From NCBI GenBank assembly GCA_015179125.1, contig WHVA01000334.1:1-64000 (forward strand): a stretch of 64,000 bases of DNA. Reading direction: 5' to 3'. The translations under genes were made by a program, and so were the position numbers. This document shows positions 17,528-56,300 of the stretch, one piece after another; the stretch's first letter is position 1, and each line of letters begins with the position of its first letter. Below the pieces are notes generated by a model, which ran no database searches, was not told where the DNA came from, and worked only from the letters and a program-made list of their open reading frames with translations. Source of the stretch: Gautieria morchelliformis (taxonomy: Eukaryota > Basidiomycota > Agaricomycetes > Gomphales > Gomphaceae).

Positions 17528-17532
17528 CAAAC

Positions 17533-27575: not shown

Positions 27576-30204
27576 CCAAGGGCCTCAAAGTGAAGCAAGC
27601 AGAGGCTGTTACTTATTATTAACTTTTAGCAAACTCAGGAACATGTATCAAGATCTATTTTGTGACATATACTGACATAAATAAAATAGTCCAGGAAACC
27701 CTATTTAAGCAGCTGCTGTCATTAATTTTAGCAAAGTCAGGATTATCTATTTTTCGAAAATGTGTCAAGAAAATGTCCAGTACATGTAAGCTGAAGCTGT
27801 TATTAATTTTAGCAAAGTTAGGATAATCTATTTTTTGAAAAATGTCAAAAATGCACTGTACATTTAAGCTGGAGTTGTTTCACAAAGTCAGGATAATTTA
27901 TTGATATCTATTTATAAGGCCATTTATGTCGTCAAATGCCCCGGATTTCGACATATGTTGCTTCTGCTTCAGGAAACCCTTTCTGACAAAGATATCCCAC
28001 ATCATACAACAACCCAGTCGTTAATAGTGTGGGCATGGGAGACTCAATTTGAAGAACTCAAGGAAGAATTACCGGTGTGCCCCAATGTATTACCAATATC
28101 CATATTCTCATATGGGCTTAGTATGCGGCTGGGAAAATTTCACTTACAATGGATGGGTGGGACGATAAGTCTATGCGTGCTATATTGCAGTAACCGCTCA
28201 TTACCTACGACGGTCAATATGTCCTACTTCAAAAACTATACAAGGACTGCTGGAGATGTATGCAGCACTCGTAGGATTTTTACCAATGCCAGGCCGCCAC
28301 TTTGGTCAGGATCTCACGAAGGGGCTCGTTTTTGTTACTGATCATGCAGGAATCACTGACAAGGTATGTTTTGACGGAGATGGCTAAAGCCGGTGACCAT
28401 CTATTATCACACTAGATTGGGTTTATTACAACAGATGGTGCCTCATATATGGCAGCGATGGTACAAGACTTTGAGGCTATCCTGAGGAACCTGTTTATTG
28501 ACTTTGAGAGCAAAGAGTGGCACATTGTGTATGTAATTTTATCTAGTTATTTTACTTGCATCCTGATTGCCAGCTTAGGTGTTTCCCCCACTGACTTCAT
28601 ACTTCAGTTACAGCGATGCTTCATGGGTGTACTAATGAAGTTGCGCTACAGAACACTACTAATGAGTTTGAGTCCCTTGAGAGGGAACCTGAGAATCCTG
28701 ATACACAAACCATGGCAGACGCACTTCAGTGAGACCCCATGGCAATTGTGCGCAATATTATCAACAATGTGAGGGCATCGCAGTTACGTTGTGAAGAATT
28801 TAAAGAGGTCATTGAATACAGTAATCGACAGTCTCAGTGGGAGGACAAAGATGGGCATAAGTATAGTCTTCCAGTCTTAGCTCTACTCTGTGACAATCCA
28901 CTTCGCTGGGGTTCAACATATATTATGTTGGAACAGTTTTTTCCTTCAAGCCGTAAGTGACTAATTAATTTACTAGCAAATACTCATGTACACTCTCAAG
29001 CCGATATATCTTAACCCTGGTATCATCAACATGCTTTTCAAGAGTAGACTTACGCCATGTGAGTGGAAAGTACTGGAAAGCATCAAGGAGATACTGGAGG
29101 TATGTACACTATTCTCTGTTGAAACAACAATCTTCAATGATTTTATGATATCAGCCTGCACATGCGCTACAGTCTGTAATGTGCTTGGAGTCGACCCCTG
29201 TGCTTGCCTGTGTTGTCCCAGCATTCAATTCCCTTCTGAGTGCTTGGTCATGTATGTGTGAGCAACCTGCAAAATCACATCTGAGACCAATGCTTCAAGC
29301 TGGCATTGACAAGCTATGCAGTCAGTACAACGACACTTGCTTTTCAAAGTCTTCGATCATTTGCATAGGTAATCCCTCGTTCTTGTTTTTGTGTAATGTT
29401 GTTCGGCTAACCTGTGCCTCAGTTCTTCATCTAGCCCTTTGTTTCTGATGGCTTGAAGAAATTTGGCCAGAACACCATGTAGTATATGCCAAACAAGTGA
29501 TAAAGGAAGAGGTAATAAAAATCATGAACTACTCATTAACTGCACTATATTGTTCGCTTAGACAGTATCGTGAGAATCACCTTGATGCCCAACCATCACA
29601 TAGTGCACCGAAGCACCATTCACCATCCAAGAATGCATTTAATATTTTGTTTGGCAAAAGGCGCTCCGCATCATACCACTGGTTGGCCCCAGCACACACC
29701 CTCTGTCAATGAGGAGTTCAACTCATATTGCCACACACCGAACTGGCCTGATATCTATTCCCTTGACCTTGTCAGTTGGTGGGAGTAAGCACTTAATATT
29801 GTGTGCTACAAGCAAACTAACACTATTATCAGCATCACGAAGACCACTACCCCATCCTCTTTCTCCTGTCGCTCGATTACCTCCCAGCGCAGGCATCCTC
29901 CGTGCCATCGGAGAGAGCCTTCTCCTCCAGTGCTGAGACAGATACATGTCGCAGAAACCGAATCAGCCCAGACCTTATGGAAAAGCCTCAGATGCTGAAA
30001 TTCCTGCTTAGGAAAGCACTATTGGACTTCACTGCTGGTGGGAAGTGTGATGAAAATGATCTAGAGTTAGAAAATGACTGCAAGGATGGAAGGGTGCAGA
30101 CACTCAGCAGCCGCATGAAAAATCAGAGGCTTCATAACCCAGTGGCGGAAACTAGTAGCGAACAGGACAGCGACGATAGCTTGTCATCTGGATTTGATGG
30201 GTAG

Positions 30205-33199: not shown

Positions 33200-34401
33200 C
33201 CGTCCCATACTTCTCCTCCTTCAGACATGGATCCAGATGATCATCTTTGGAATGTGGAGGAGGAGTTGACGCAGAACCGGATGAAGACCGACGCAATTGA
33301 AACAGCCTTACAAATGATTTTGGCTAAGTTAGATATTCCATGAAGTGGTGGAAATGTGATGCAGGATGAGTCGTATTTCAGAAAAGTGGAAGTGGCGGAA
33401 GAGAGGATCTCTGCAAAGTTGGCAAAAGTCAAACCCGCAACTCTTGCGGACTTTGATGGAGATTGGGAGAAGGGATGCGCATTCTTCAACACATGCAGCA
33501 TCTACTTCACAATTGTCGGAGACCTCTTTCTGAACGACCAGGCTCAGATTCACTGGGCATTGTTCTTTTTCAAGTTGGACTGCGCAGCCCGTTTTGCAAA
33601 CAAGGTGATCTGACATGAAGCAAAGGGCAAGGGAAACTACTTCCGGGACTGGGATGCCTTTGAAAAAACCTTTTCCAACTAGTTCTGCCCGAAATGAGCA
33701 ACTCACAGCCCTTATGAAGCTTGAGGGGACCAGCTGGTACCAGGCCAAGGATCCGGTCGATGACTACATCGATCACTTCCAGGAGCTCATCGACCTTGTG
33801 GAGTATGAGGACGACAAGACGATCGTCATCAAATTCCGACAGGGACTTGATCTGACACTCCAGAACCAAGTTGCACTGCTTGGGGATGGAGCTCCAGATT
33901 TTGATGACCTGGAAGGGTGGTACCAGGCTGTGCAGGGGGTGTCCGGAAACAGGGAAGTGAATGAGGCCTTTGTGGAGACGAACCGGAACATGACATGCAG
34001 TTCCGCTCCTCCTAATCCACCTGCACCGAAACCCGGAACAGCATTCATTCCGACACGGAAAATATTTCCAACGGTTGTTCTGCCTGCCCCTACTAGGAAC
34101 CCCCTCCCTCGAAGAGTGGCCCCGCCCCAATGGATGTTGACCGCATGCGTGGAAAAGGCAATGGAACTGTCACCTGCTTCTGATGCTGACAGCCAGGTCA
34201 CTATGCCCACGAGTGCCCCCAAGCTTTTGACATCCGGTTTATGACCACAGAGGAGAAACTTGAGCTCCTCCCAGAGTTCCTCACACCGGCAGACATAAGC
34301 AGAGTGCCCACTGTGGAAGAAAGTTCTGAAAATGTGGAACATGGGGCGTCGGAAATGGAAGATGCATCGGATTTTGTGACGCGCAGCGGGTGAGATGTGT
34401 G

Positions 34402-34886
34402 TGTTGGGTGCATATATGCTCCTGCACCAAAATCAAGCATAATATATTCGATTTACTGTATGGTGTTTCAATCTCTTCTCAGATTGTTCTTGTACCATGC
34501 ATTCACTTCTCTGTTTATTTTCAAAATTTTCTAGTCACTCCCTACCTCTCCATTTCATTTTGTTATTCCTATTTTCACAAGCGGCTGCACCCAGCGGAGT
34601 TTTAAATGACTTCGACGCGCGCCTTGGGCGCTAAAGGGCCGGGTGCAGGTATATGCATTCTGAGACAGGATTGTACTCCTCTCTCAGTGACAATAAATTC
34701 ACTGAGAGAGGCGAGTAATATTCTTCATATTTACATAGCATGTTGACTGAAAATCATGTAGTGTGTTTGATTCTAGGTATTGTATCAATATAACAGTGAC
34801 AATAAATTCACTGAGAGAGTGTATTTGATTCTAGCTTTCTAAGAACTCTACCGAACCTTCCCTGCCATAGCCCCTAGTTGCTGACA
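34402..34886 (+). repeat. Copia 5' LTR
   Basis: Begins TGTTGGGTGC and ends CTGACA. It contains two copies of an inverted repeat built on ctctctcagtg and cactgagagag, which can fold as hairpins. It is almost identical to 39659-40146. Confidence 0.9.
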
Positions 34887-34892
34887 AGGGTT

Positions 34893-35764
34893 ATGGGCCC
34901 CGCAGACACTTCGCAGAAGCTTTTGGGTGTGGAGAAGCTTGCAACAGATGGAAGTAATTGGCCTCTGTGGCGAGCTACTCTCACAAGTTATTTTGAGTCC
35001 AAAAATCTACTCAGGCATATAGAAGGGAGAGCCATTCGACCTCCTGATCCTCCAGTCATGCCCCCAGGCCATATTCTTACAGAAGCTGAGGAAACTCAGA
35101 TTGAGAAGGCTGAGGAGAAGCTGGAGAAGTATCTTGCCAGAGAAGGACAGGCAAAAACCCAAATAATCGTCTCAGTGTCAGAGTCACTAGCTCTGATGCT
35201 ACAGAAGAAGCACACAGCAAAAGAAGTCTGGGATGCATTGGTCAATGAGATGACCAAAAAGCCCAAGATGGTCCTCACCAACCTACAGAGACAGCTTCGC
35301 AGTATGAGGTGTCCTGAGGATGGAGACTTGAGAGATCACTTGGACAAGGCCCAAGACCTCTATGCTCGTCTTAATGAGATGGGAGCCAGAATTTCTGAAG
35401 GAGAGTTCACCGACATCATCCTTGCGTCACTTCCACCCTCCTATGAGGCAGTTATGAATGCCCTTACCACGTCGCTCGAAGAATGTGGAATGCCCTTAGT
35501 GCCTGATGATATTATCAGAGTACTAAAGGCTCAATACGACAGGAGAAAGACCCTCAATATTTCACAAGAAGAGCAGGCATTTATTGGTTCATCTACGAAA
35601 GGGCAGAAGGGCCGGAAAGACCCGAAGGTGCCTGCATGCACTAATTGCCACAAGCCTGGACATGCTATAGAGAGTTGCTGGGCTAAAGGAGGTGGTAAAG
35701 AAGGCCAGGGGCCACGTCAGAAGAAGAAAGCGAAAGCCAAAAAGAAGAAGGGCAAAGCCAAGGC
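34893..35764 (+). CDS. Copia Gag region
   Basis: The capsid-type protein of the Copia element. It starts at the ATG in the primer-binding context. Features: SNWPLWRATLTSYFESKNLL near the N-terminus, a UBN2-like middle (AKEVWDALVNEMTKKPKM, ARLNEMGARISEGEFTDIIL) and a zinc knuckle CTNCHKPGHAIESC, followed by a Lys-rich tail. It is bounded downstream by the solo LTR insert. Described as a fossil part only. Confidence 0.85.
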
Positions 35765-36261
35765 TGTTGGGTGCATTTATGCTCCTGCACCAAAATCAAG
35801 CATAATATATCCAATTTGTTGTGTGGTTTCTCAATTTCTTCTCATTTTGTTCTTGTATCATGCATCCATTTCTCTGGTTATTTTCGAAATTTTCCACTCA
35901 CTCCCTGTCTCTCCATTTCATCTTGTTATTTCTATTTTCACAAGCGGCTGCACCCAGCGGAGTCTGAAATGACTTCGACGCGCGAACTCTTGGGCGCTAA
36001 AGGGCTGGGTAGTAGTACATGCACAGTGAAACATTTTCCCCCTCTCTCAGTGACAACTAAATTCACTGAGAGAGGCAAGTAAATTAGTCTAGCATTCTTT
36101 CGATTTATTAACCTAGAAATCCTCTGTAGTGAATTGTTTTCTAGGTAGTGTATAATATATTTATAGTGACAACTAAATTCACTGAGAGAGTGAATTGTTT
36201 TCTAGTCTATTCTTTTGAGCAACAAGTCCATACCTACTGCCTATAATTCCTGTCCTCTACA
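35765..36261 (+). mobile_element. solo LTR inserted between Copia Gag and Pol
   Basis: A 497-base LTR related to, but clearly diverged from, the flanking Copia LTRs. It begins TGTTGGGTGC and ends in CTACA. The 5-base duplication aaggc borders it at 35760-35764 and 36262-36266. It shows the same paired hairpin blocks (ctctctcagtg). Confidence 0.85.
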
Positions 36262-39200
36262 AAGGCGAATGTTGCCGAAGAAGTGTCCTCTGAGGAGGAT
36301 GAGAGTGGCAGTCCAGCCGCTTTCGCCAACTTCGACTGCTCTAATTTGAGTAGTTTATCTCTGGACACTGTTGTTATCCTCGACACTCGAACGACCGCAC
36401 ATATGACCCCTCACAAGAATTTATTGAGGGATTACAGTCCATTCTCACAACCGCGCACAATTCGTGCAGCCAACAAAGGCACTTTTGACGCCTTCGGTTC
36501 AGGCTCACTTGTGCTATCTAACAAGGTTGGAGATAAGACTGTGAACATTACATTGAAGGATACGTTCTACGCGCCCAAAATGGCTGTTACCCTGATCTCG
36601 ATCGGCCGGTGCGATGATGCAGGCTATAACACACAAATAGCTGATCAGAAATGCACAATATCCAATCGTAAAGGCAGGATATTGATGCAAGCACCGAAGC
36701 TGAATGGCTTATATCGATTTGATTTGCAACACACAAGTGCCGAAGCGCATATATGTGCATCAGCCATGGAGATACATCAGAAAATGGGGCACATTTCACA
36801 AAAGTCCCTACAGCACTTGCTCAACCGTGGCATGATATTAGGCATTGAATTGAGCTCAAAAGGTGACAAGGTTGTTTGCGATGCGTGCATTCAAGCGAAG
36901 ATTGCACGTAAATCACTTCCTCAGGAACCCAGAAGCCGATCATCAAAATTCGGTGACAGAATTTATTCTGATGTCTGGGGACCAGCGAGACACTCCACAA
37001 TTGACAAGAAATCCTATTATGTGTCCTTCATCGACGACTACTCAAGGGAATTGGTTATCTATTTGATGGCAAACAAATCGGAAGCATTTTCAAAATACAA
37101 ACTCTACGAGGCTTTGATGCTTCGACAGAGGAACGTGCACATTAAAGCACTTGTTTCCGACAGAGGGGGCGAATACACAAGCTCAGAATTCGAACAGCAT
37201 TTAGCCAAGCAAGGCACAAAGCATCGGTTAACCGTGCACGACACCCCAGAGTCAAATGGTGTTGCTGAACGTCTAAACCGAACTCTAGTTGAAAGAGCTT
37301 GTGCCATGCTATTGGAATCAAATCTTCCTAAGACTCTATGGGGGCATGCAATTTTGCACGCCAACTATCTTAGGAATCGGACACACACAAGAGCTTTGCC
37401 AGACAAAACCCCTTTTGAAATGATCCATCACGAGAAACCGAACCTGAAGGACATACACGTGTGGGGAATTGAAGTCTACGTTAAAGTCAAAGAGGGAAAC
37501 AAACTAGCAGCCTGTGCCAAAAGAGCTCAGTGGATAGGAATCTCTGGACAGAGCCATGGTCACTGCATCTATTGGCCTGACTCTCAGAAGGTTTCTATCG
37601 AGCGGAATGTTATATTTGACTCAGAAATGAAGGGGGGCAAAGCTCCAATCATTTCTATTGAAGAGTCACAGCTACCTACGTCCATAAAAGTGATACAGGC
37701 CATTTCGGTGCCAGCACCCATGCCTAGTCGCTTAGTCAGTGAGGAGGCAAAGATCGAAGAAATTGACGATGATGAACCAGAGGAACATCTGAAGGAGCTG
37801 CAACCCAGTCAGACTGTTGATATAAGACCTAAAGAAGCTGCTCCAACAAGGAGAAGCGAAAGGATCCGTCAGCAGCAGGAGCAGCCGGCCCCAAGTGGTC
37901 CCGTAACAAGATCTCAGGCTAAGAGACATGCTGGTGTAGACATCACTACACTAGCTTACGAGGACATTGAGGACCATCAAGACAAATTATTCGAACAAGA
38001 TTTACCCTCTGAAACTGACGGCATCAGTGATTATAACCTTGCCATCAGTACACTTTCAACATCCGATCAAAACAAAGATAAGGTGCTGCCAGATTTGAAT
38101 CAGACTGAGCCTAGCAATGCAGATGAAGCCTTAAATGATCCTATGTGGAAAGCATCGATGGATAAAGAGTACAAGGTGCTACTCGACAAAGGTGTATGGG
38201 AAGTGGTTAAACCACCTCCTGGGGCAAATATTGTCGGAAATAGATGGGTATTCCTCTGGAAACGCAATCCAGAAGGTGAACCCATTACACCTAGATCAAG
38301 GATGGTCGCCCAAGGCTTTACACAAAGTTTTGGAGTTGACTACAATGAAACCTATGCAACTGTTGCTCGGATGACTTCCTTACGGATTATATGTGCCATT
38401 GCTGCCAGGAACAATTGGCCTATTCATCAAATGGATGTGGACAGTGCGTATTTGAATGCTACACTGCCAGAACCTATTTACATGAGACAGCCGTATGGAT
38501 ATGAGACCGGGGACAAAGATGATGTCCTCCTGCTAAAGAAAGCACTTTACGGCCTCAAACAGTCTGGAAGGGAATGGTACAAATGTCTGAGTGGTGAATT
38601 TCTCAAGTTAGGATTCACTAAATCAGCTTCGGATGGAGCCATATTTTGCAGACGTGGACCGAGAGGGCATGCGATTATTGCAATGGCAGTAGATGACCTC
38701 ACTATCACAGCTGAGAGTCAACCAATCCTCGATGGGGTAAAGCACGACCTTGCCCAGGTTTTTAGTATGAAAGACCTAGGCGATATTCACTGGCTTTTGA
38801 AACTCAAAATCGAAAGAGATTGGAATAACAAATCGATTGGAATATCACAAGCCGCATACATCCAGAAAATCATCAAAAAATTCAATCTGGATGATGCCAA
38901 AACATTTTCCACGCCTCTCGACCCAGCCGTTAAATTATCCAGAGACCAATGCCCTTCCACAGATGAAGACAAACAGAAGATGTCAAGAATTCCATACAGA
39001 CAAGCGATAGGATCATTGATGTGGGCAGCAGTAGCCACCCGACCAGACATTGCATTCGCAGTGTCATTACTTTCTCAATTCCTCGAAAACCCGGGTCCAA
39101 TACATTGGCATGCAGTCAAACGTGTCTTTAAATATCTAAAAGGCACGATGGACTACAAATTGACACTTGGGAAAAATCGAGACGGCCTCATTGGGTATTC

Positions 39201-39645
39201 AGATGCGGATTGGGCTTCACAAGAGCACAGGCACTCATACTCGGCTTATATTTTTCAGATTGATGGAGGGACAGTATCATGGAGTTGTCAAAAACAATCC
39301 ATCGTAGCCCTATCATCAACTGAAGCCAAATTCGTTGCCCTGACTCATGCGAGCAAAGAAGCCTTATGGATGCACCACTTTATTTCTGAAGTATTCCAAC
39401 CGCTTAATTGTCCCATCAAACTTTATTCAGACAATCAATCAGCCATTGCCATTGTCTATGGCACTCAACAACACACGAGGACCAAGCATTTCGACATTAG
39501 ATTATATTTCATCCGAGATATAGTCGAAGATGAAGAAATTAAGCTTGTGTACCTACCAACGGAACACATGCTAGCCGATCTTCTCACTAAAGGACTTCCT
39601 AGTCCTAGAGTGAGAATCCTCAACGAGAGAGTCGGAATATATTAA
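36262..39645 (+). CDS. Copia Pol region
   Basis: The polyprotein region, with domains in the Copia order: a protease-like segment (about 36340-36480), the GAG-pre-integrase zinc motif (HQKMGHISQKSLQHL with CDACIQAKIARKSLP), the integrase core (YSDVWGPARHS, SFIDDYSRELVIYL, HDTPESNGVAERLNRTL), the reverse transcriptase (MDVDSAYLNATL, ALYGLKQSGREWYKCL, MAVDDLTI) and RNase H (GYSDADWASQEHRHS, LYSDNQSAIAI). Integrase before reverse transcriptase marks it as Ty1/Copia and not Gypsy. Fossil entry: parts and order only. Confidence 0.9.
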   Translation, partial: KANVAEEVSSEEDESGSPAAFANFDCSNLSSLSLDTVVILDTRTTAHMTPHKNLLRDYSPFSQPRTIRAANKGTFDAFGSGSLVLSNKVGDKTVNITLKDTFYAPKMAVTLISIGRCDDAGYNTQIADQKCTISNRKGRILMQAPKLNGLYRFDLQHTSAEAHICASAMEIHQKMGHISQKSLQHLLNRGMILGIELSSKGDKVVCDACIQAKIARKSLPQEPRSRSSKFGDRIYSDVWGPARHSTIDKKSYYVSFIDDYSRELVIYLMANKSEAFSKYKLYEALMLRQRNVHIKALVSDRGGEYTSSEFEQHLAKQGTKHRLTVHDTPESNGVAERLNRTLVERACAMLLESNLPKTLWGHAILHANYLRNRTHTRALPDKTPFEMIHHEKPNLKDIHVWGIEVYVKVKEGNKLAACAKRAQWIGISGQSHGHCIYWPDSQKVSIERNVIFDSEMKGGKAPIISIEESQLPTSIKVIQAISVPAPMPSRLVSEEAKIEEIDDDEPEEHLKELQPSQTVDIRPKEAAPTRRSERIRQQQEQPAPSGPVTRSQAKRHAGVDITTLAYEDIEDHQDKLFEQDLPSETDGISDYNLAISTLSTSDQNKDKVLPDLNQTEPSNADEALNDPMWKASMDKEYKVLLDKGVWEVVKPPPGANIVGNRWVFLWKRNPEGEPITPRSRMVAQGFTQSFGVDYNETYATVARMTSLRIICAIAARNNWPIHQMDVDSAYLNATLPEPIYMRQPYGYETGDKDDVLLLKKALYGLKQSGREWYKCLSGEFLKLGFTKSASDGAIFCRRGPRGHAIIAMAVDDLTITAESQPILDGVKHDLAQVFSMKDLGDIHWLLKLKIERDWNNKSIGISQAAYIQKIIKKFNLDDAKTFSTPLDPAVKLSRDQCPSTDEDKQKMSRIPYRQAIGSLMWAAVATRPDIAFAVSLLSQFLENPGPIHWHAVKRVFKYLKGTMDYKLTLGKNRDGLIGYSDADWASQEHRHSYSAYIFQIDGGTVSWSCQKQSIVALSSTEAKFVALTHASKEALWMHHFISEVFQPLNCPIKLYSDNQSAIAIVYGTQQHTRTKHFDIRLYFIRDIVEDEEIKLVYLPTEHMLADLLTKGLPSPRVRILNERVGIY

Positions 39646-39658
39646 GCTTGAGGGGGCG

Positions 39659-40146
39659 TGTTGGGTGCATATATGCTCCTGCACCAAAATCAAGCATAAT
39701 ATATTCGATTTACTGTATGGTGTTTCAATCTCTTCTCAGATTGTTCTTGTACCATGCATTCACTTCTCTGTTTATTTTCAAAATTTTCTAGTCACTCCCT
39801 ACCTCTCCATTTCATTTTGTTATTCCTATTTTCACAAGCGGCTGCACCCAGCGGAGTTTTAAATGACTTCGACGCACGAGCCCTTGGGCGCTAAAGGGCC
39901 GGGTGCAGGTATATGCATTCTGAGACAGGATTGTACTCCTCTCTCAGTGACAATAAATTCACTGAGAGAGGCGAGTAATATTCTTCATATTTACATAGCA
40001 TGTTGACTGAAAATCATGTAGTGTGTTTGATTCTAGGTATTGTATCAATATAACAGTGACAATAAATTCACTGAGAGAGTGTATTTGATTCTAGCTTTCT
40101 AAGAACTCTACCGAACCTTCCCTGCCATAGCCCCTAGTTGCTGACA
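39659..40146 (+). repeat. Copia 3' LTR
   Basis: It follows the purine tract after the Pol region and matches the 5' LTR nearly base for base, including the paired ctctctcagtg hairpins. It is followed by the gtgtg duplication. Confidence 0.9.
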
Positions 40147-40546
40147 GTGTGCCCCTGCTGCCTGTACATAACTAGTCTGCCTGTCTTGAAGTAGAGAATG
40201 AGAAGCCCCACTCCCCTCACTTCGTACAGACCCACCGGATAAAGTCACACAAAAGCCAAGTCCAACATCCCGCCCACTCCGCATCCAACGCCTCCCGAAA
40301 TGCTATGTTGTTGCCATCACCCTGGGCCCCAAGTCACTTGTCATTAAGGTTGAGATCCAGACGATGGACAGACTGTGGGGCCACTGGTCAGTTTGTGGAC
40401 TGGGACTATGTGGAATGGAACTGACTGACCACATGGAAGTTGCAACGTGCCATCCCAGTGTTCAATGTGGATGGAAGCCCCAATGAGGCAGGGTCTATCA
40501 TGGAGATAGTAGATGCAATTCTCCGCTACAATAGACACACGGAATG

Positions 40547-41905
40547 TGTTGTGATATACGCAACTATTCATTCTAAGTCATCTATGTATACAAAGAAACT
40601 AATAAAAGAAAAAAAGAGAAAGACTAAAAAGATAGGAACGACACTCATGACGGACATGTCAGGGTTCACACATTTCCTTCCACAAGTTTCTATTTCCTTC
40701 CATGAGTTTCCATAACCTTCCGTCAGTTTCCGTCACCTTCCATAACCTTCTACAAGTTTCTATCATCTTCCATGAGTTTCCACAACCTTCTACAAGTTTC
40801 CATCTCCCCTATTATGTAAACCTTGCCAGCACTATAAGACTGTAGCCAGTGTGGTGGCATTTCCTCAGCTTGATCTCTGAGGATACCCACTACACAGTTG
40901 GTTATTGTCCTTGCATCGGCCATTATCTCCTTGAGTATCTTTAGGTTGTGGCTTCGTCATTAGTGTTGCCCTCACAGGACATCAACACAGACGACAGACA
41001 CATGACATCATGAGCAGCTACCTTATCTATAGATCAGATAAGATACAGGAACACGGGCATCGACCATGTGTGGCCGATCAGAGATAGCACGCCTATCGAC
41101 TGATGGCATTGGCCATGACGTCGACAGGCGCCAGGCCACAGGCACCGAGGAGGTGTGGGCACCAAATGCCGCAGAGCAGTGTAGACTGCGCAGGAGCACC
41201 GGACGTCGCGGAATGACTATAGAATGTCATTCCAAGTACGTGTGCCAAATCAGCTGCCCCACAGAAGAGGCACAGAGACAGCGGCCCCATCACCAAGACT
41301 AGCATTTATGCTAGGCAGGAGGGATATTTTCTATTGAGCTCCATGACACGACCAGCTGACTACTATCTTGACACCATGTAGACAGGGGCTTTGTATAATA
41401 GGTACAAGACTCTATTCCAAAGCTTAACACCCCTGACACTATCCCCATCACTCCCATGACTTTATGACTACAAGTAGTCACCCCTCTAGTTACAAGTAGT
41501 TTTTCGACCCATTGACTCACTATCTCGAACACTAGTAGTTATCACTAGTATAGTATAAATAGCTACTACGAATGTATGAATCAATCATCCAGAATCAACT
41601 GTTTCGCCCCCGAAGTTACTGCAGTCTTGTTTGATAGCTACAGAACCTTTACTCCAATTCTTTGCTGAGAGTTCACTCTTACTGTTTACTCTAGACTACC
41701 TCAAAAGCGAAGCCTTTTGATATAGTTATCCTCTAGATCGAGACCAGTCTCTCGTCGACACGGTCACGTGACCTTCATCCATCAGTGCCGGACGTGCCTC
41801 GGGAGGCTTAGTCAGCACACAGGAGAGGGACAGATATAGCGGTCCAAACCGCTGAGCAATAGAAATTATTTGCTAAAGGCACCATCCAACATTTTAATCA
41901 TAAAA
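40547..41905 (+). mobile_element. solo LTR-like insert, copy 2
   Basis: The same family as 16458-17527, here on the plus strand and 1,359 bases long. The 5-base duplication gaatg flanks it at 40542-40546 and 41906-41910. It begins TGTTGTGATA and ends TCATAAAA. It sits inside the protease region of the broken Gypsy element. Compared with copy 1 it has about 290 extra bases (about 40650-40980) made of repeated cacaagtttc/ccttccat-like phrases. No coding sequence. Confidence 0.72.
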
Positions 41906-42004
41906 GAATGCACTTCCTTTGCAGTCACCAGCCTGGGGAAGCAAGACATCATCCTCAGGTTTACCTGGCTGCAGGAGCACAACCCGGAGATCAACTGGCA
42001 GACT

Positions 42005-45491: not shown

Positions 45492-47260
45492 ATGCCAGCC
45501 AAAGGAGATCCAAATTCCTCTGGAGAAGACGAAAACTCATTGAACGAGAATCCAACCCCATCCGAAGAGCCTGAAAATGGCACTTCCACGACGGGTGAGC
45601 TTTAAATATCATCTCATTAGTAGTAACGGTTCGGCAACGCGTTGCAGATCCCGAAGATACAGTGCCACTTCCTGAACATACTCCAGCACAGGAATTGATA
45701 TATAAGTCTGAATTGCCCTCCGCTGTCGAACGTGATGAATCCGCATGTGATGTCAGGCGCTGCATGGCCAAGCTAGTCAGGTTCAGTCGCAAGGACAGCG
45801 GCGTATCTTGCAAGCCTACAGAAGTCGAGTTCCTCATAGAGGTCAAACCTACGCATTCAAATATTGTCCGGTATTTGGAGATCACGGACGAGTATATTTT
45901 TATGGAGCACTGTCCGCTCGGGTCCCTCGATCATTATCTTGCATCGCTTGCAGACGCGCCTGTGGTTGAATGGACGCTTCAGCTCTGTGATGCACTCGTC
46001 TATCTTCATTCTATGGGATGGGCGCACAACCAGCTCCGTCCATCGAATATTCTGGTCGCAGACAATGGTGCTCAATTGAAGATATGTGATTTTGCGCACG
46101 TAACCGCCATCAGAGACAAAGGCGATGAGAATAGCGAGGCACGAGACAATGCTTTCGATATATTTTGTCTGGGATTGGTGTCATGGTTCGTTCAACAGGC
46201 AGGTGAGAGTGTCCCAGACGACCTCTGGAATACTGATAGCAGTATATCCGGGGATCGGTGTCTTCCCATTGATGGGCTTCAATTGTCGGAAGTTATGGAG
46301 CTCTGCTGGTTGAAGCCCGACGTGCGCCCGAGTGCTATCATATTGCGTAATCTACTTCGAGAGATCCAGGAGAATTCCGGAGGTGGCGTTTCGCAGGCAG
46401 ACACTGTCAAACGGCCTGATGGAGATTATCAAAACCAGCGACCGACGCATGGCGTGGAACTCACGAACGACAAGGTTACCCAAGGAGTTGATTCCTCTCC
46501 GGCAAGTGTTTCAAGTTCAAGAGTTCGTCTCGCTGTGGTGAAATTTCCAAAGAAATACTTGCTGGATGTTCCCTTGTACGCACAGGCTAGACAGATCTCT
46601 TGGGCTGCCTTTGATAAGGAACGTACCTTCCTTCACTCCGTCAAACCAGTCCACCCGAATATCGTGCGGTACCTTGCCGTAACAGACAACGCCATATATG
46701 CGGAGCACTACATAGGGTCTCTCGAGTATTATCTTACTCCTGACATGAAGCCTCCCGTCTTTGAGTGGACATTACAGCTGTGCAGTGCCATAGCATACCT
46801 CCACGGGCTTAATTATGCACACTGCCAGGTGAGCCCTTACAACGTTCTCGTTGGCAAGGGAGGCTCGGAACTTCTACTTGGTGATTTTGGCACTGTGGAG
46901 TGTGCCGGCACGCCGTGTGACAAGGCCGACGAATATGGAGCGCCAGAGAACGCTATAACACAACACCAGACGTCCGAGGACTTGTCGGAATACCGCCCTT
47001 GTCGCGCAACGGACGTGTACACGCTTGGGTTGGTGACATGGTTCATGCAGAATGGGGGCAAGCCTATCCCCCACAATTATATATGGTTTCCGGACTCGAG
47101 TGGCTTTCCTCTTTATCTTGATGCGATCCACTCGCATGTGGACATAGTCGACTTCACAGGGCTGCAATTGGTAGAGTTCATGCGCGCGTGCTGGGCACCC
47201 AGTGTTTCCCGGCCGACTTCTAAAGATCTTTTAGAACGCCTACCCACCATGCGAGGGTAA
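45492..47260 (+). CDS. dual pseudokinase protein, copy 1
   Basis: Two exons (45492-45594 and 45648-47260, GT-AG intron) encode 571 residues. The start was chosen because the upstream exon (MPAKGDPNSSGEDENSLNEN) joins in frame; it is an acidic Ser/Glu-rich leader. The protein has two protein-kinase-like domains, roughly residues 70-270 and 325-565. Domain 1: THSNIVRYLE, HNQLRPSNILV where HRDxKxxN is expected, and CDFAHV where DFG is expected. Domain 2: AVVK (candidate VAIK Lys), HPNIVRYL, HCQVSPYNVLV in place of HRD, an intact DFG in LLGDFGTV, and an APE-like GAPEN. Both lack the catalytic Asp, so phosphotransfer is unlikely; a scaffolding or sensing role is inference. The two domains share THSNIVRYLEIT/HPNIVRYLAVT and EWTLQLC motifs, suggesting internal duplication. 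The paralogue is at 50791-52571. Confidence 0.85.
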
Positions 47261-47343
47261 TATTACGTCGAGGGGTCGTCTGGATCAGAGTTGGGGCACA
47301 AATTCTGTTGTTTGGTTCCTTACGCGCGGTAATGATGGATCTG
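47261..47343. other. 3' flank of pseudokinase copy 1
   Basis: Almost identical to the sequence following the paralogue at 52572. It ends at the MITE target duplication. Presumed 3' untranslated region. Confidence 0.5.
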
Positions 47344-47351
47344 ACGATGGG

Positions 47352-48214
47352 TAGTGATGGGCACGGCCTGGCTTGGCCTGAAAGCCGTGGCTTTGGCCTG
47401 GCTCACCCTGGCTTTGGCTTGCTAAAAACCTGAGCCAGGCCATTAGCACTTGGCCTGGCTCGGCTCGGGCTTGGCCTTGGCTTGGGCCGTGGCCTGTTGG
47501 TGGGATAGATTAGTAAGGTTAATAACTGTGATATATATACTATTACCTTGTGAAACACTCGCATATGCCTGTGAAGTGTAGATACATCATTGGGTGACTT
47601 TCCGTAGAGCTAAATTCCTAAATTCCACGTTCTAAACGTCGCGGAACATCGAGCCGAGTAGTAGCCGATGACAGGGAAGCGTTTTACAAGTCCGCTATGA
47701 CAGAAAAATTAATGTTTTAAACCAAAAATTATAGGTTGAAGTAGAATTAGAGTACGGGGTTTTGACAGTAGATTCGATGATCTATAACAGTTCAGATCGC
47801 TGACTTAAATACATAAACACTGTTCTAATTATAGTTGAATCCTTTTTTCTTTGCAAAGTACAAAGCGCGCTTTGTACTTTGCTGCGCTCCTTGTGCTCCT
47901 ATATCCTTTGTCTCTGCACGCGTCATCGGGTTGCGTAAGTGTGCCGAAGTGCCGCTATATCCAACAAAAATAACGGAAGGCGACTGTAACTACACTACAT
48001 ATCATTGAAAAATGTTATATACCCACCAGTATCAGAGCAAACATACCCTGTCCTGTATTTAGGCGCTCGCCAGGCCACGGCTTCCTGGCTCGGCTTTGGC
48101 CTGGAAACCTGAGCCGGGCCATGGAGCCGGATGCGCCAACTTTGGCCTGGCTTGGCCCGGCCTATTGGCGGCTCGGCTCGGCTCACGGCCTGGGCCAGGC
48201 CATGCCCATCACTA
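47352..48214. mobile_element. hAT-type MITE with known empty site
   Basis: An 863-base element with inverted ends tagtgatgggca and tgcccatcacta. It is flanked by the exact 8-base duplication acgatggg (47344-47351 and 48215-48222). The paralogous duplicate reads gatctgacgatgggacgagg without interruption near 52651-52670, which is the natural empty site. Both ends are rich in GGCCTGGC/GGCTTGGCC repeats and the middle is AT-rich. No coding sequence. Eight-base duplications and TAGTG ends fit the hAT superfamily. It inserted after the segmental duplication. Confidence 0.92.
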
Positions 48215-48222
48215 ACGATGGG

Positions 48223-48880
48223 ACGAGGCTCCTGGGCTCCACTATGACTTCCCCGTACAGAACCTGCGCTTTAGAACTTACAACCAATTACTCACCGCAT
48301 TTAGAAAACTCAAAGCGATCCCCACTCCTCTTTCCCAAATCGCCAGCCATACTGTCTGTCAAATTGACGTAAACACATGACTTGTTTGCGTGAGAAAACA
48401 CCTTGAAAGAAAGAACGGTTACGTTACGACAGACAAGCAAATACGGACACAGAGTACGTACAAGAGGACAGCAAAAATTTAGCACATATATGCATCGTCT
48501 TACATGGCCAAAAGGCACAAATGGATTAAAAGAGGACAAGCAAGCAAACCATGATGAGATGAACTCCGGCCGGGAAACACAACATTATATACGTACATGG
48601 CTTGGGAAAGACATACAAGATGGTCACAGGAACCAAAAAGGAGGTGGTGGGAAGGAAGTATTTAGAGCTAAAGATCCCGGGCGTGCGGGGGAGAAGGTAC
48701 GAAACGTTCCAACCCAAATCATACTGCAGGGGGAACCGGTCTGGCACTTATATACAACGCCAGCTAAATTGTCCTCTCAACCTGTCCTCAGATTGTGAGG
48801 CACCGGTCTAATTACAAATAAATTGCACTACACATAACACAGGTAGATCGGAATCGACATCTCGCCCATGCATGATCACT
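48223..48880. other. spacer between pseudokinase 1 and condensin fragment
   Basis: Matches 52667-53322 of the right copy with small indels. It contains no gene; short frames on either strand differ between the two copies and are not conserved. It represents the convergent 3' untranslated regions of the two genes. Confidence 0.5.
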
Positions 48881-49445
48881 CTACGGCTCATCTTCACTAC
48901 CTAGCAAATCGCCCACCTCTCCCTCCTCGTCGTCTGATGCATCCGGTCGGTGACTCTCGAGTAGGTCATTGATTTGCTCGTCCAACTCGGTCTCGTCCCG
49001 TTTTCACTTCGAGACAGGCTGCTCTTTGCTGCTCCTTTCGAATCAATCAGTCGTTCTGGTGATAAAACACTCAACGCCAGTCTGGACTGTCTGAACATAC
49101 CTTCCCTTTCGCTTGGCAGGCGGAGTTGGCGTGCCACTTCCGTCCTCGCTGTTCTCAGACTCGGATTCTGAGCCTGATTCTACAACGATCGAGGGCCGTG
49201 ATTCGCTGGGATTTCGGCTGGTGAGAGGAGTGATACGTGTGTATGGATGAGATACGCTCACGCGGCTCCTTTAGGTAACGTGCGAGGAGTGTCCTTGATC
49301 TTGCTGTTGACGTCACGAGGCGGTCAATGCAATTCGACCCGAAAGCGTTGATCGAGGGAACTTACAGAGCTGTCCCTTGCTCTTGTTTCTTGCAGCAGGA
49401 GTCGTGGCCTCGAAGTCCTCGTCATCTGAAGGTACGTTTAACGTC
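48881..49445 (-). pseudogene. condensin Cnd3 3'-end fragment
   Basis: A duplicate of the last exons of the condensin gene at 53323-57523. It retains the acidic exon with SGSESESENSEDGSGTPTPP and the last exon ending LLGSEDEP. In the last exon one codon that reads Arg in the intact gene (KRKR) is a stop here, and no upstream exons follow past about 49445. It is a by-product of the segmental duplication and cannot make a condensin subunit. Confidence 0.85.
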
Positions 49446-50774
49446 TCGTCCCCCCTTCTCCCTCGCTCGGGATCTTAGCCCCTTCGGCGGAACACCCGAT
49501 CACTTTCTCCAAATCTCTCCTGCCTTGTCACCCATTAACGCGCTCCAGCAACAGATGAAGAGACTGAATCAGAGTAATCCATCATTGCCATACATCAGGA
49601 TTCAGGAAAAAATGGTATGTATTAGTATTTCGTAGACGAAGTAGCGTACATAGAGCGAAGGCTACCCTTGTATATATGGTGTGAGGTACCCACAGTGCAC
49701 TATAGCGATACGGACACAACAGAGAGGCTCCTGTCGCCAGCTCGGCTTCGTGGACCTATTGCACGTGAAGAGTGGATTTAGAGTGGCGAGTGCAAAAAAT
49801 CAGATTAAAAATGCATTGTCCTCCTTCTCATACGACGAAATCTTCTCCCCACGGAAATAATTTATCCACAATGACGATACACTCACAGTACTGCTCAGGC
49901 TGCCAGAATAACTCCACCGACATGATAAAATGTGTTGTTATCAAGGATATTGGAACGGTAGAGACCAACATTGCGAGCAGGACGGTCGGAAACTGCATTG
50001 TAGGTCTTGAGCCACGCCTTGAGCAATCAGTTAAAGTAGATACCTACCATGTACGAGTGTCGGCTTGAGGACCCATTCAAAACGACATGCTATTCCAGCG
50101 ACGGCCCAGGGATTGTTAGCTTGAAACACGCTTCTCAACAAGGAGTGCCATAAGATCGAAGCTCGAGCTGGAAAACACATCGTGCGGTGGCTATGACCAG
50201 CGATACGCCAATGTTAAGTTAAGGCCGAACACAAGGAAAAGAATTGCATCCAACGCGATAAAAGAGAATGCGATCACTACTATACTGAGCCATGTCAGGT
50301 GAGAGTTTGATCCTGAGTCGGACTTGGAGTCCATCCTTGAGGTCTACTAAAGAGAAGATTCGAGAGGGGGCGAATCGCCGGCCTGCTCTTGGAAACGTCG
50401 GAGCCCTCTTACTGTAAAATGAATATTCAGCTTCCACTGATCCAGTGCGGCGAGTGTCGTTTTCCAGGCCCAATGATCTCCAGTACCAGAATTGACAGCT
50501 TACTGCATCATGCCGCATCATGAGTTAGCCTACTGTATAGGAATAGTCGAATTCCCGCCAGGGCAATTTGGTTGTTTCTGGATCAGTGATATAGTACTTG
50601 CAGAGCTTTCAGGTGTCCTATTGCAGTAGTGGCTAGTAATGAGGACTGGGCGTCCTCTTTGAGAACAAACGGTGTTTCCTGCGGCCAAGCTCAAACCGGG
50701 AAGTCGGACTGGTACCAGCAGCCGGACGTGTATTGCTCGGGAATCAAGTAAGGCGTCTGATCTTTTTGGACGAG
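49446..50774. other. unique spacer between duplicated units
   Basis: About 1.3 kb not shared with the duplicated units. A minus-strand frame at 50219-50521 and a plus-strand frame at 49772-50068 have no recognised motifs. The last part (50530-50774) is presumably the promoter region of pseudokinase copy 2. No repeat with a match elsewhere in the window was noticed. Confidence 0.4.
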
Positions 50775-50790
50775 GTTGTTGTCGACGACC

Positions 50791-52571
50791 ATGCCAGCCA
50801 AAGAGGAAGCAAACGTGTCTGAAAAGATGCAAGCCAACCTAGTGAGAAAGATGCTGAAGAACTTGACATTAATGTCGTTGCGGCCACAGGTGAACCTGAA
50901 ATTTCATCCCCGGAATCTTCATTTGTGGTTCACCAATGTTTCGCAGATTCTGAAGATACTGGGTCACCTCCTGAATATACTCCCGCACAGCAAATGATAT
51001 ATCAGTCTGAATCGCGTTCCGTTGTCGAACGTCATGTCGATGAATCCTCATGTGATATCAGACGCTGCATGGCCAAGCTAATCAGGTTTAGTCACAATGA
51101 TGACAGCGACGTATCGTGCAAGCCTACAGAACTCGTGTTCCTCCAAGACGTGAAACCTACGCATTCAAATATTGTCCGGTATTTGGAGATCACGAACGAG
51201 TATATCTTCATGGAACACTGTCCGCTCGGGTCTCTAGATCACTATCTTGGATCCCGTACTAACGTGCCTGTGGTTGAATGGACGCTTCAGCTCTGTAATG
51301 CGCTGGCCTACCTTCATTCTATGGGATGGGCGCACAACCAGCTCCGTCCATCGAATATTCTGGTCGCAGACAATGGTGCTCAATTGAAGATATGTGATTT
51401 TGCGCACGTAACCGCCATTAGAGACAAGGGCGATGAGAATCGCGAGGCGCGTGACGATACCCTTGATATATTTAGCTTGGGATTGGTGGCATGGTTCGTT
51501 CAACAGGCAGGTGAGAGTGTCCCAGACGACCTCTGGGATACCGATAGCAGTTTGTCTGGGGATGGGTGTCTTCCCATTGATGGGCTTCAATTGTCGGAAG
51601 TTATGGAGCTCTGTTGGTCGAAGCCAGACGTGCGCCCAAGTGCTATCATACTGCGCAATCTACTTCGAGAGATCCAAGAGAATTCCGGAGGTGGCGCTTC
51701 GCAGGCAGACACTGTCAAACGGCCTGATGGAGATTATCATAACGAGCCACTGAGGCGTGCCGTAGCACCCATGAACGACAAGATTGCCCAAGGAGTTGGT
51801 TCTTCTCCAGCAAGTGTTTCAAGTTCAAGAGTTCGTCTCGCTGTGGTGAAGATTCCTCGGAAATACGCACTGGCTAATACCTACGGTACGGAGGAAATGC
51901 AGGCCTCTCGGGAAACGTTTGAAAAGGAACGTACCTTCCTTCACTCTGTCAAACCAGTCCACCCGAATATCGTGCGGTACCTTGCCATAACAGACAACGC
52001 CATATATGCAGAGCACTACATAGGATGTCTCGAGTATTACCTTACTCCTGACATGAAGCCTCCCGTCTTTGAGTGGACATTGCAGCTGTGCAGTGCCGTA
52101 GCATACCTCCATGGGCTTAATTATGCACACTGCCAGGTGTTCCCTTACAACGTTCTCGTTGGCAAGGGAGGCTTGGAACTTCTACTAGGTGACTTTGGCA
52201 CTGTGGACTCTGTTGACACGAAGTGTGGTATGATCTCAAACGATGCATATGGACCGCCAGAGAACATTATAACACCGGAGCAGACGTCCGAGGACTTGTC
52301 CGAATACCGCCGTTGTGACGCATCGGACGTGTACACGCTTGGGTTGGTAACATGGTTCATGCAGAATGGCGGCAAGCCTATCCCCAACAATTATACATGG
52401 CTTGACCCCTTGAATGACTATACTTATCTTGAGGTGACCCCCTCGCATTTGGACGTGGTCGACTTCACAGGGCTGCAATTGGTAGAGTTCATGCGCGCGT
52501 GCTGGGCACCCAGTGTTTCCCGGCCGACTTCTAAAGATCTTTTAGACCGCCTACCCACCATGCGAGAGTAA
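50791..52571 (+). CDS. dual pseudokinase protein, copy 2
   Basis: Paralogue of 45492-47260, closely similar along most of the two kinase-like domains. The main exon starts after an acceptor that aligns with that of copy 1 (before SEDTGSPPEY, about 50950) and runs to the stop at 52571. Domain 1 has HNQLRPSNILV and CDFAHV; domain 2 has AVVK, HCQVFPYNVLV and DFGTV. The HRD Asp is again missing in both, so the loss predates the duplication. The leader starts MPAKEEANVSEK at 50791, but the frame that joins the main exon (SEKDAEELDINVVAA) is offset by one base, so the leader carries a frameshift or the real start lies further in (next ATG about 50994). Divergence is concentrated in the leader, the interdomain linker and the segment after AVVKIPRKY. 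Confidence 0.8.
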
Positions 52572-53322
52572 TATTACGTCGTCGAGGGGTCGTCTGGATC
52601 AGAGTTGGGGCACAAATTCTGTTGTTTGGTTCCTTACGCGCGGTAATGATGGATCTGACGATGGGACGAGGCTCCACTATGACTCCTCGTACAGAACCTG
52701 CGCTTTAGAACTTATAACCAATTACTCACCGCATTTCTAAAACTTAAAGCTACCCTCGATCCTCTTTCCCAAATCACTAACCATACTGTCTGTCAAATCG
52801 TCGTAAACACAAGACTTGCTTGCGTGAGAAAACACCTTGAAAGAAATAAAGAACGGTTACGTTACGTCGCGACAGACAAGAAAATAAATACGGACATAGA
52901 GTACAAGAGGACAGCCAGATGAAAAAATCAGCACAAATATGTTGTCTTACATAGGGTACTACCCCAAAAGGCACAAATGGATTAAAAAAGAACAAGCAAG
53001 CAAACCAGAATCGATGAGATGAACTCTGGCGGGGAAAACACAACATTATTTATGTACATGGCTTGGGCAAGACATACAATATGGTCACAGAGAACAAAAA
53101 GGAGGTGGTGGGACGAAAGTGTCTAGAGCTAAAGATCCCGAGCGCGCAAGGGAGAAGGTACCAAACGTTGCAACCCAAATCATACAGGTCTGGCACTCAC
53201 AACGCCAGCTAAATTTGTCCTCTCAACCTGTCCTCAGATTGTGAGGCACCGATCTAATTACAAATAAATTGCACTACACATAACACAGGTAGATCGGAAT
53301 CGACATCTCGCTCACGAGCACT
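52572..53322. other. convergent 3' regions, pseudokinase 2 and condensin
   Basis: 750 bases between the stop of pseudokinase copy 2 and the stop of the condensin gene on the other strand. It contains the empty MITE site near 52651-52670. No gene was seen. Confidence 0.5.
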
Positions 53323-56300
53323 CTACGGCTCATCTTCACTACCTAGCAAATCGTCCACCTCTCCCTCCTCGTCGTCTGACGCATCCGGTCGGTGACTCTC
53401 GAGTAGGTCATTGATTTGCTCGTCCAGCTCGGTTTCGTCCCGTTTTCGCTTCGAGACAGGCTGCTCTTTGCTGCTCCTTTCGAATCAATCAGTCGTTCTG
53501 ATGATAAAACACTTAACGCCAGCCTGGACTGTCTGAACATACCTTGCCTTTCGCTTGGCAGGAGGAGTTGGCGTGCCACTTTCGTCCTCGCTGTTCTCAG
53601 ACTCGGATTCTGAGCCTGATTCTACAACGATCGAGGGCCTTGATTTACTGGGAGTTCGGCTGGTGAGCGGGGGGATACGTGTGTATGGATGAGATACGCT
53701 TACGCGGCTCGTTTCGGTACGGTGCGAGGGGTCACGGGAGGCGAAGCGGCTCGACCAGTGTCCTTGATCTTGCTGTTGACATCACTAGGCGGTCAGTGGA
53801 ATTCCGAAAGCATTGGGGGAAATTACGCACCGTCTCTTGCTCTTGCTCCTGGAAGCAGGAGTCTTCACCTCGAAGTCGTCATCATCCGAAGGTGCGCTTG
53901 TAGACACACTTTGAGATCTATGCGGCACCCCATACTCAGCGCTCGGGCGATGTATCGCTTACAGAATGAGATGTTCACCTCGCAGCTCTTTTCCCAGGCG
54001 GGGGAGGGAAGGCTTCTCCATCCTCATCGTCAGATTTGAACTCATCCAAGAACTCGAATAGCTCCTTGAGATCCTCAAGTTTTCTGAAATCATCCTCGTT
54101 GAATCCCTCCAACGGCTGCGCGAAACGTTTTGTGAGCGCCTTGTCGAAGCGTAGCATAGCGTTCTTCGATGTCGTATCCCTGAGGGGTCGCCGCTATAGC
54201 GTAATCAGAGGGATGCCATGTGTATATTGCAATATAATGACGCACCCGTTGGAGAGTAGTCAAAAGGAGCTTCAGAGTTCGGATCTTGTCCTCATCCGCC
54301 TCGTCAGGGAAATACAGTTTGCCGAGCATCTGGCATAAGATCTTCTTGTCTTCCTCTGTAGAATATTAGGCGCATTGATACCGGAAGCACTAGTAACAGA
54401 TAATGAAACCCCGAGCTTACTGTATATTTCAGGCTTGAACAGGGCCCTCACGATATCGACGGCCAGGTCGACATGTATGACTTTGTCCATAACTTGACCT
54501 CGCATATCACTACGATATTCGATGAGTCACACACAAGCAGTAAAAGATACGTTAGCTCGTACACAGCGTTCCGTGGATCTGTCCAGTCTGCCAAAAGGAG
54601 CGAGATCTGCGAAGGGGGAATCATCTCTAAATCCTCATCCAAGTTTGAATATGTTTCAGAGAGCATCTCATAAGCCGATAGGGCGATCTATGATGTCAAA
54701 TGTTTATGATTTAGTCAGAGGAAAGAAAGGCTACGTACCTTCTGCATCCTTCGTTGGTTTGCAGGGGAGGAGTAGCAGTAGACGGGGAAGAAATATGAGA
54801 GACATTGCCGGAGCTCCTGGTTATCTTTCGTGTATGGGGAGATATAGACGAGGACAAGGCATTTAAGAACCTGTTCAGAACATTGAGAAACAGCACGGTG
54901 CTGAAATGCCAAGTAATCGCACCCGTTCGTCGGTTACCATGCCGCTGAGCATGAGCTTTGAAATCCCTACACAGGCAACCGCCTGGGCCTCCTCCGACTC
55001 CTCATTCTCAAGCACGTGGAGTAAAAATTCCACGATTCTTTCGCCCTGAATATTATCATCAGCATCAGCGCACCAAAACATGTAACACAAAAATATCTTA
55101 CCGCATCTCCTGGGCGTCCAAGAAACTCATTCTCGTGCACCATCAGGATGTCGAACACGATTTTGAGCACGCGGATCTTGAGGATCTCGGGTGCAGCCTG
55201 GACTTGATTTATGAATAGTTGGAACGAGTTCAGCGCCATCCTCTGTGCACAAAGGCAACATGAATCAGCATCATCATCCCACAGATTTAAAGTGAAAATT
55301 GAAATTTCTACCTTGGCAATCAAACAACATAAGCCGAGGCTAACCAAACCTTTCTCCCTCAGGGCCATCTCTTTTGCTTTGACATTTGGTAATATAAGCT
55401 CGCCCAAAATACCCTCTAACGTCGAGTTGTCTTCGAATGTCTTCTTCCCCCGTGAGTCAGGGCCGCACTATAGAATGCATGGATACAACGTACCCCGTTC
55501 ACGCGCTCGAGCATGCCGATGCAGAGATTCAAACAACGCAAATCAATCATTGCCATGCGCGCTTTGTCTTTCTCGGAGAGATCTGTGCGGGGGACAGTGG
55601 GCTCTGCGGTTTTCGCCTTCTTTGGAGTGTCGCCGGCCTGCGTCGCGTCTTCGGCTTCGTCCACCTGGTGCACGTGAAAATATGAGTGAGGGGGTGTGGA
55701 AAACAGAGTAAAATAGGACGGACTGCTTCTTCTTCTTTCTCCGGCTCCCCGTTATCGCGAAGCTCGTGGACAACTTCGACGACGACCCGAATAAGGTCAC
55801 GTTCATTGGGGGAGAGTATGCGGAGCACATCCAGACAGCGTGCCACGAGCCCCTCTGGCAGAGAGTCTTGTGAAATCATCTCACCTGGAACAGGGAGTGA
55901 GCGTGAGGCGGGAGCCAGCACATGGAAAGTGCGACGGGACGTACGGACGAGACCAAACATCTTGCGTCTACCTATTTCGTCGGCATAGTCCAGGTTGACT
56001 GCGAGGCGCAACATCTCGCCAATGACGAACTCTTGGTCCGCACGTGCCTCTTCGTTGGCCTCCTGCTCCTCTTCGTTGTACTTACCAAGGAGTCGGGCCT
56101 CTTCGTCCGCCTGGATCTGTTCGAGCAGGCGGTTGTAGGCTGCTTGGATTTTGAACGCCAGAGCAGTAACGACGGGAAGAGAAGATTCCAGGCGGCCATC
56201 ATCCTTGGTATTGATACAGTGTTCAACGAAAACACGAATGAGAAACGCCTTTTCAGGCGTCAACTCGTTCCAAAAGGCCTCTGCAACCCAGTAAGACACC

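Follow-up and report, generated by a model that had tools for sequence, protein, structure and literature searches.

JAK proteins combine one active kinase (JH1) with FERM and SH2 domains. In plant tandem kinase-pseudokinase resistance proteins such as Yr15, one of the two domains is thought to be the recognition or decoy part. Here we describe two genes in tandem, A (45492-47260) and B (50791-52571), which lie on the forward strand of a 64,000-nucleotide (nt) stretch of DNA from Gautieria morchelliformis, called the window in the following. The window is part of contig C376 (WHVA01000334.1, positions 1 to 64,000) in an assembly of 122 Mb and 1113 contigs. Short introns, a KDZ transposase in the window and the many FunK1 matches of the genome point to a fungus and probably to an Agaricomycete. 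Each gene encodes two kinase-like domains, and all four domains have lost the catalytic Asp of the HRD motif. The two genes belong to a small family in this genome, whose five open exons show purifying selection on domain 1 and on the core of domain 2 and, in two other parts of domain 2, a signal of diversifying selection. With moderate confidence, we read the family as fungal dual-pseudokinase proteins that would act by non-catalytic binding and combine a constant with a fast-changing module.

Judged by analogy, the plant tandem proteins are the closest functional counterpart. However, they pair a kinase with a pseudokinase, whereas both domains of A and B lack the Asp. Also by analogy, the family comes closest to the expanded tyrosine-kinase-like (TKL) families of mycorrhizal fungi, an expansion reported for Laccaria bicolor and Rhizophagus (PMC2838846; PMC4219462). 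These expansions resemble the present family as expansions of kinase-like genes, a likeness by description only, and the passages that deal with them make no mention of double pseudokinases (PMC2838846; PMC4219462). Fungal pseudokinases appear to be little studied, and no paper on fungal dual pseudokinases was found in the literature searched, which was covered in part and with most subscription journals outside.

The initial annotation of the locus compared the pair with the tandem architecture of JAK. This holds for the architecture, as JAK and TYK2 also have two kinase-like domains in series, but not beyond it: both domains of A and B lack the Asp, nothing else is attached to them, and neither FERM nor SH2 gave a Pfam match up to E 1 in the exon-2 proteins of the two genes. 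Membership of JAK was therefore rejected. A profile of the four domains searched against the PDB (best 60 of 1636 sequences) matched several kinase groups with E-values from 2e-16 to 6e-12, including GCN2 (2e-16, several stretches summed), PYK2 (9e-15), EGFR (4e-14), TYK2 (7e-14), TAK1 (1e-13) and JAK2 (1e-12); CSK was also among these 60. Since JAK2 matches no better than PYK2 or TAK1, the profile does not single out JAK. Two further assignments were rejected. The N-terminal four-helix bundle of MLKL has about 120 amino acids (aa), and the 71 aa upstream of beta3 in domain 1 of gene A are too short for a helical bundle. FunK1 (PF17667), a large fungal kinase-like family with at least 118 matching stretches in this genome, gave no Pfam match in A or B at E-values up to 1.

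Gene layout and domain content

Gene A is predicted to have two exons. Exon 1 (45492..45594, 103 nt) starts with MPAKGDPNSSGEDEN and encodes an acidic leader. It is followed by a phase-1 GT..AG intron of 53 nt (45595..45647, GTGAGC..TGCAG) at a position identical in the other copies, and by exon 2 (45648..47260), an open frame with both kinase-like domains and the stop. The splice sites were predicted by comparing copies, and the splice model is common to the four intact copies described below. The predicted product runs from the ATG at 45492 to the stop at 47260 and has 571 aa. Counted from beta3, domain 1 (45758..46384, with HNQ and DFA) scores 61.9 bits against PF00069 (cut-off 31.7), and domain 2 (46526..47257, with AVVK, HCQ, DFG and APE) scores 42.9 bits against PF07714 (cut-off 23.1).

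Gene B has the same layout, and its exon 2 (50947..52571) is open and contains both domains by Pfam. However, the ATG of the exon 1 remnant (50791..50889) does not share the frame of exon 2, and a stop ends the spliced frame at 49 aa. An in-frame Met lies about 20 residues upstream of domain 1, and since exon 2 is open, gene B may use another start. Still, gene B is probably disabled at its 5' end, and as this end looks disabled, A and B are not a pair of two working genes. The initial annotation had both frames open over about 530 codons, which is correct for exon 2 of A and B but not for gene B when read from its ATG.

When tested singly, all four domains score above the gathering thresholds of PF00069 and of PF07714. 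This agrees with the initial description of two adjacent genes with two kinase-like domains each, and places the domains in the protein kinase-like superfamily, on the tyrosine kinase (TK)/TKL-like side. As the single-domain pieces were cut at beta3, the scan is uninformative on the Gly-rich loop.

The catalytic-loop motif HRDLKPxN is replaced in all four domains. Pattern searches found HNQLRPSN in both first domains (46025..46048 in A and 51333..51356 in B) and HCQVxPYN in both second domains (HCQVSPYN at 46820..46843 in A and HCQVFPYN at 52128..52151 in B), with Gln at the position of the HRD Asp each time. Domain 1 keeps the beta3-type Ala-Lys and the alphaC Glu, but it has DFA for DFG and a much shortened activation segment. 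In domain 2, the beta3 Lys (AVVK), the alphaC Glu, the Asn and DFG are present in all five copies with an open exon 2, i.e., A, B and the copies C149a, C149b and C811a. The APE position reads APE in A and C149b and PPE in B, C149a and C811a. No GxGxxG was found in the exon-2 proteins of these five copies or in the complete A protein. In B and C811a, AVVK is preceded at a distance of about 15 residues by a degenerate GVGSS stretch, which may be a remnant of the Gly-rich loop. A and B thus differ from the kinase superfamily in the lost Asp, the lack of an intact Gly-rich loop, and the DFA and shortened activation segment of domain 1. The initial annotation had recognized the loss of the Asp in all four domains, the DFA of domain 1 and the retained AVVK and DFG of domain 2, and the alignment of A with B likewise bears out its observation that leader and linker diverge while the motif blocks are near-identical.

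Within gene A, domain 1 and domain 2 are 39% identical (E 3e-43, single comparison), and the two domains therefore most likely arose by intragenic duplication. Because both have Gln at the same position, the loss of the Asp most simply predates this duplication.

Family copies in the genome

A protein search of the fungus's own genome gave at least 22 matching stretches. Gene counts from this search are lower bounds, as it scores the best candidates only. Eight copies contain most of at least domain 1: A, B, three on contig C149, two on C811 and a truncated one on C333. Relics are found near 411 kb on C149 and on C523, C362 and C432. The Gln motif is present throughout the eight copies, as HNQ in 8/8 first domains and HCQ in 6/6 second domains, and of the two relics that reach the catalytic-loop site, one has HNQ and the other HNH. 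The HRD Asp and, in the five open copies, GxGxxG are lacking, which speaks against classification as an active protein kinase; the beta3 Lys, alphaC Glu and DFG give a mixed picture, being complete in domain 2 but accompanied by DFA in domain 1. As a control, 32 other kinase loci of the genome gave 27 catalytic-loop pattern matches in matched frames, a set that omits loci whose catalytic loop is split by an intron. The Asp is present in 25 of the 27 (24 distinct, as L051 and L060 overlap); the two matches without it come from the opposite strand to the kinase. Judged from these sequences, the loss of the catalytic Asp is old and common to the family in this genome.

The initial annotation considered that homologues with intact HRD motifs might reveal the pair as ordinary decayed kinases. 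No such homologue was found in this genome, where kinases of the HRD type gave only distant matches (best E 3e-4 for the whole protein as query and 3e-3 for domain 2). Reading the translations, we take the remote kinases on C494 and C157 to be an Ssk2-like MAP3K and a PDK1-like kinase, respectively. Hidden Markov models (HMMs) of domain 1 and domain 2 also gave remote matches only when run against the 32 kinase loci (best 28.5 bits), and NCBIfam, with its prokaryote models, returned general kinase models only, far below their cut-offs. Scans of viral contigs (query A3) and prokaryote genomes (query A2) gave no relative; as neither collection is fungal, they are uninformative on the fungal distribution. 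The family is perhaps confined to a species or lineage.

The stretch upstream of the ATG comes in two types, P1 and P2, which separate the intact from the damaged copies. All four P1 copies (A, C149a, C149b and C811a) are predicted to splice to intact proteins, of 571, 574, 570 and 574 aa, respectively, while all four P2 copies (B, C149c, C811b and C333) are damaged. The readings of B, C149c and C811b are 49, 167 and 43 aa long. C333 has lost its splice acceptor; disregarding this loss, its reading has 382 aa and ends in an unrelated tail. Head-to-tail pairs, P1 followed by P2, occur at three loci, i.e., in the window, on C149 and on C811, and the pairs on C149 and C811 share 92% identity over 4.2 kb. 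The pair in the window is one working-looking and one probably disabled gene in a recurring arrangement.

Selection on the two domains

Selection was analyzed on a codon alignment of the open exon 2 of the five copies, using a purpose-written codon-model program. Both domain 1 and the domain-2 core evolve under purifying selection. With a single omega (the ratio of replacement to silent substitution rates, dN/dS) over the tree, domain 1 has 0.46 (twice the log-likelihood difference, 2dlnL, 16.7 against omega 1, p 4e-5), and the domain-2 core, with borders to the loops set post hoc, has 0.36 (2dlnL 17.2, p 3e-5). The same model gives 1.59 for the linker (p 0.19), 0.78 for the lead (p 0.57) and 0.72 for the whole alignment (p 0.003). 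The initial annotation had proposed to compare dN/dS of the two copies between domains and linker. At a transition/transversion ratio (kappa) of 1, the Nei-Gojobori method (NG86) gives A and B a dN/dS of 0.23 for domain 1 and 0.98 for domain 2, with 1.66 for the linker; at a kappa of 3 the values are 0.30, 1.19 and 1.96, in the same order.

The signal of diversifying selection comes from site models that need no borders within the domain. Comparing M2a with M1a gave a 2dlnL of 16.1 in domain 2 and 11.4 over the whole alignment, as against 1.5 in domain 1. In a parametric bootstrap of domain 2 under M1a, none of 120 replicates reached 16, and the maximum was 9.7. The domain-2 test gave 23.0 and 21.1 on two other topologies and 10.5 without the first loop. 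When each segment was given its best topology, the 2dlnL was 12.6 for columns 294-405, 0.8 for columns 405-460 and 12.9 for columns 460-541, which sum to 26.4 (6 degrees of freedom, p 2e-4). The activation segment (columns 405-460) gives only 0.8, and the signal thus resides in two parts of domain 2 rather than three. By sequence landmarks, the first fast patch covers the beta3-alphaC loop and the start of alphaC (46544..46606 in gene A) and holds 12 of the 14 sites flagged in segment 294-405. The second lies past alphaF, around alphaG (47072..47146), with 12 of the 16 sites flagged in segment 460-541. Sites were flagged by naive empirical Bayes.

The frames have also been maintained. In neutral substitution simulations on the tree, none of 2000 runs kept all five frames open, and a mean of 4.8 were broken; chance was thus rejected as the cause of the open frames. 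The frame of gene B stayed open in 63 of the 2000 runs, which suggests that its exon 2 was constrained until recently.

Sequence exchange between copies

In domain 1 (columns 60-120), A and B have a dS of 0.27-0.41 and a dN of 0.07-0.10, i.e., the silent distance is not lowered. Since the conserved blocks of domain 1 differ at silent sites, selection keeps them alike. In the conserved block of domain 2 (columns 340-420), dS is 0.09-0.14, compared with a mean of 0.18 between A and B, and over the last 40 codons it is 0.02. The 86 nt right after the stops are identical in A and B (47266-47351 and 52580-52665), unlike region 45628-47351 as a whole, which is about 12% different from its copy; this points to a recent exchange at the 3' end. 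The low dS in domain 2 and the tail, together with the identical 86 nt, show that exchange between A and B explains part of the likeness of domain 2. Exchange does not account for the replacement excess, as columns 480-520 contain 18 replacement differences and one silent difference. Gene conversion as the sole cause of the near-identical blocks was thus rejected on the silent distance of domain 1, and the case is less clear for domain 2.

Proposed function and alternative explanations

The reading we favor is a family of dual-pseudokinase proteins with a length of about 570 aa and a non-catalytic role. A single kinase-like ancestor domain, with its HRD Asp already lost, would have been duplicated within one gene, and the resulting protein would act by binding and not by phosphorylating. 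The more constant domain 1 would contact a conserved partner, while the fast parts of domain 2, i.e., the beta3-alphaC loop and the alphaF-alphaG region, would recognize or mimic a changing target, which might be a kinase that evolves rapidly, a protein of a parasite or a determinant of self and non-self. Arranged in head-to-tail P1-P2 pairs or singly, the copies exchange sequence and decay, with P1 copies such as gene A left intact and P2 copies such as gene B damaged. In kinases, the regions beside alphaC and around alphaG are frequent binding sites of regulators and substrates, and by sequence landmarks the fast parts lie in these regions, which would be compatible with a role in recognition or as a decoy. 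The initial annotation had proposed selection on a non-catalytic function. For the family this agrees with the retained Gln, the open frames and the purifying selection on domain 1 and on the domain-2 core; for the pair as such it is at odds with gene B, which looks disabled. A dN/dS near 1 across the domains was part of what the initial annotation named as contrary evidence, and the omega of domain 2 as a whole comes under this.

Several results weigh against this reading. Domain 2 as a whole has an omega of 0.79, which does not differ from 1 (p 0.16), and its three loops have 1.58, which is not significantly above 1 (p 0.06); the borders that separate these loops from the core (1.58 versus 0.36) were drawn post hoc. 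The variable activation segment (46901..47005 in gene A) is not significant alone (2dlnL 0.80). The alignment behind the recognition reading is small, with only five closely related paralogues, and naive empirical Bayes was the method that flagged the sites. Restricting the analysis to the four intact copies lowers the domain-2 site test to 12.2, a value reached by 2 of 200 simulations, and gives domain 1 an omega of 0.53 (2dlnL 8.2); the domain-2 core is at 0.36 (2dlnL 13.9) and the loops at 1.60 (2dlnL 3.0). The diversifying signal is thus weaker with the intact copies alone. Informative sites also point to exchange between copies near the 3' end, which can inflate site tests. Structure prediction, as suggested in the initial annotation, did not help, since AlphaFold2 gave no usable model: the predicted local distance difference test (pLDDT) was 29.5 for the alignment of A and B and 34.0 for domain 2 with the other three domains, which leaves exposure of the fast patches presumptive. 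The poor model of domain 2 has its secondary structure in kinase order from beta3 on, which is a hint only.

The simplest rival is ordinary birth-and-death evolution, in which kinase-like copies decay in a region rich in repeats, serve little or no function and have loops that vary under relaxed constraint. The damage to four of the eight copies, the further relics at C149:411 kb and on C523, C362 and C432, the transposons in the same window and the omega of domain 2 as a whole are all as this explanation would have them. However, the omegas of domain 1 and the domain-2 core are both far from 1 and speak against a total lack of function. The four intact, predicted spliced genes, the neutral simulations, in which no run kept the five frames open, and the replacement excess in two parts of domain 2 are also difficult to combine with it. 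We therefore regard this explanation as possible but rather unlikely.

Alternatively, the proteins might be decoys or dominant-negative partners that co-evolve with one active kinase of the same fungus, and no foreign or non-self recognition would be involved. Many pseudokinases act in this manner, and segments such as the fast ones often bind regulators or substrates in kinases. The search of this genome, however, turned up no close active relative (best E 3e-4 with the protein as query), and a fixed partner alone does not call for diversifying selection, which makes this alternative doubtful. Slightly weaker still, and in our view improbable, is an atypical active enzyme in which domain 2 binds nucleotide and catalyzes an unusual transfer under regulation by domain 1: domain 2 retains AVVK, Glu, Asn and DFG in all five open copies, but none of these copies has the HRD Asp or GxGxxG, APE is found in only two of the five and PPE in three, and domain 2 is the less constrained of the two domains.

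Returning to the non-catalytic binding protein, a more far-reaching version would be an intracellular recognition receptor built of dead kinase domains only. A constant signalling pseudokinase would be joined to a diversifying detector of variable non-self or parasite proteins, and the copies would be shuffled by tandem duplication and exchange. We offer this as a speculation with little likelihood of being correct in full. If the fast parts do form a recognition surface, the family would be a fungal counterpart to the plant tandem-kinase recognition proteins. A tandem in which both Asp residues were lost ancestrally, and in which selection keeps one part constant while another diversifies, would also provide a natural test of what the kinase fold does without catalysis.

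Genomic surroundings

A gene-like stretch ending in DASDDEEGEVGDLLGSEDEP and a stop has been duplicated along with the pseudokinase gene and is found at 48860-49700 (minus strand) and 53313-53899. Further copies of it occur on C333 (86%) and C330 (73%). An inverted repeat of about 1 kb (88%) lies at 16457-17529 and 40545-41906; the same repeat is dispersed and adjoins family copies or relics on C149, C333 and C811.

The window also contains several mobile elements. The Ty1/copia element at 34401-40146 has gag- and pol-like open frames between direct repeats (34401-34886 and 39658-40146) and an internal repeat-like piece of 81% (35765-36205); with direct repeats that are 99.2% identical, it is a recent insertion. 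Inverted repeats of 629 bp with 98.7% identity (103-731 and 7997-8623) flank a KDZ transposase frame (5737-6300), and this region is a candidate young DNA transposon. Finally, the region 20514-28000 is dense in minisatellite-like repeats, includes a PIF1-type helicase frame (25702-26949, minus strand) and is possibly a Helitron.

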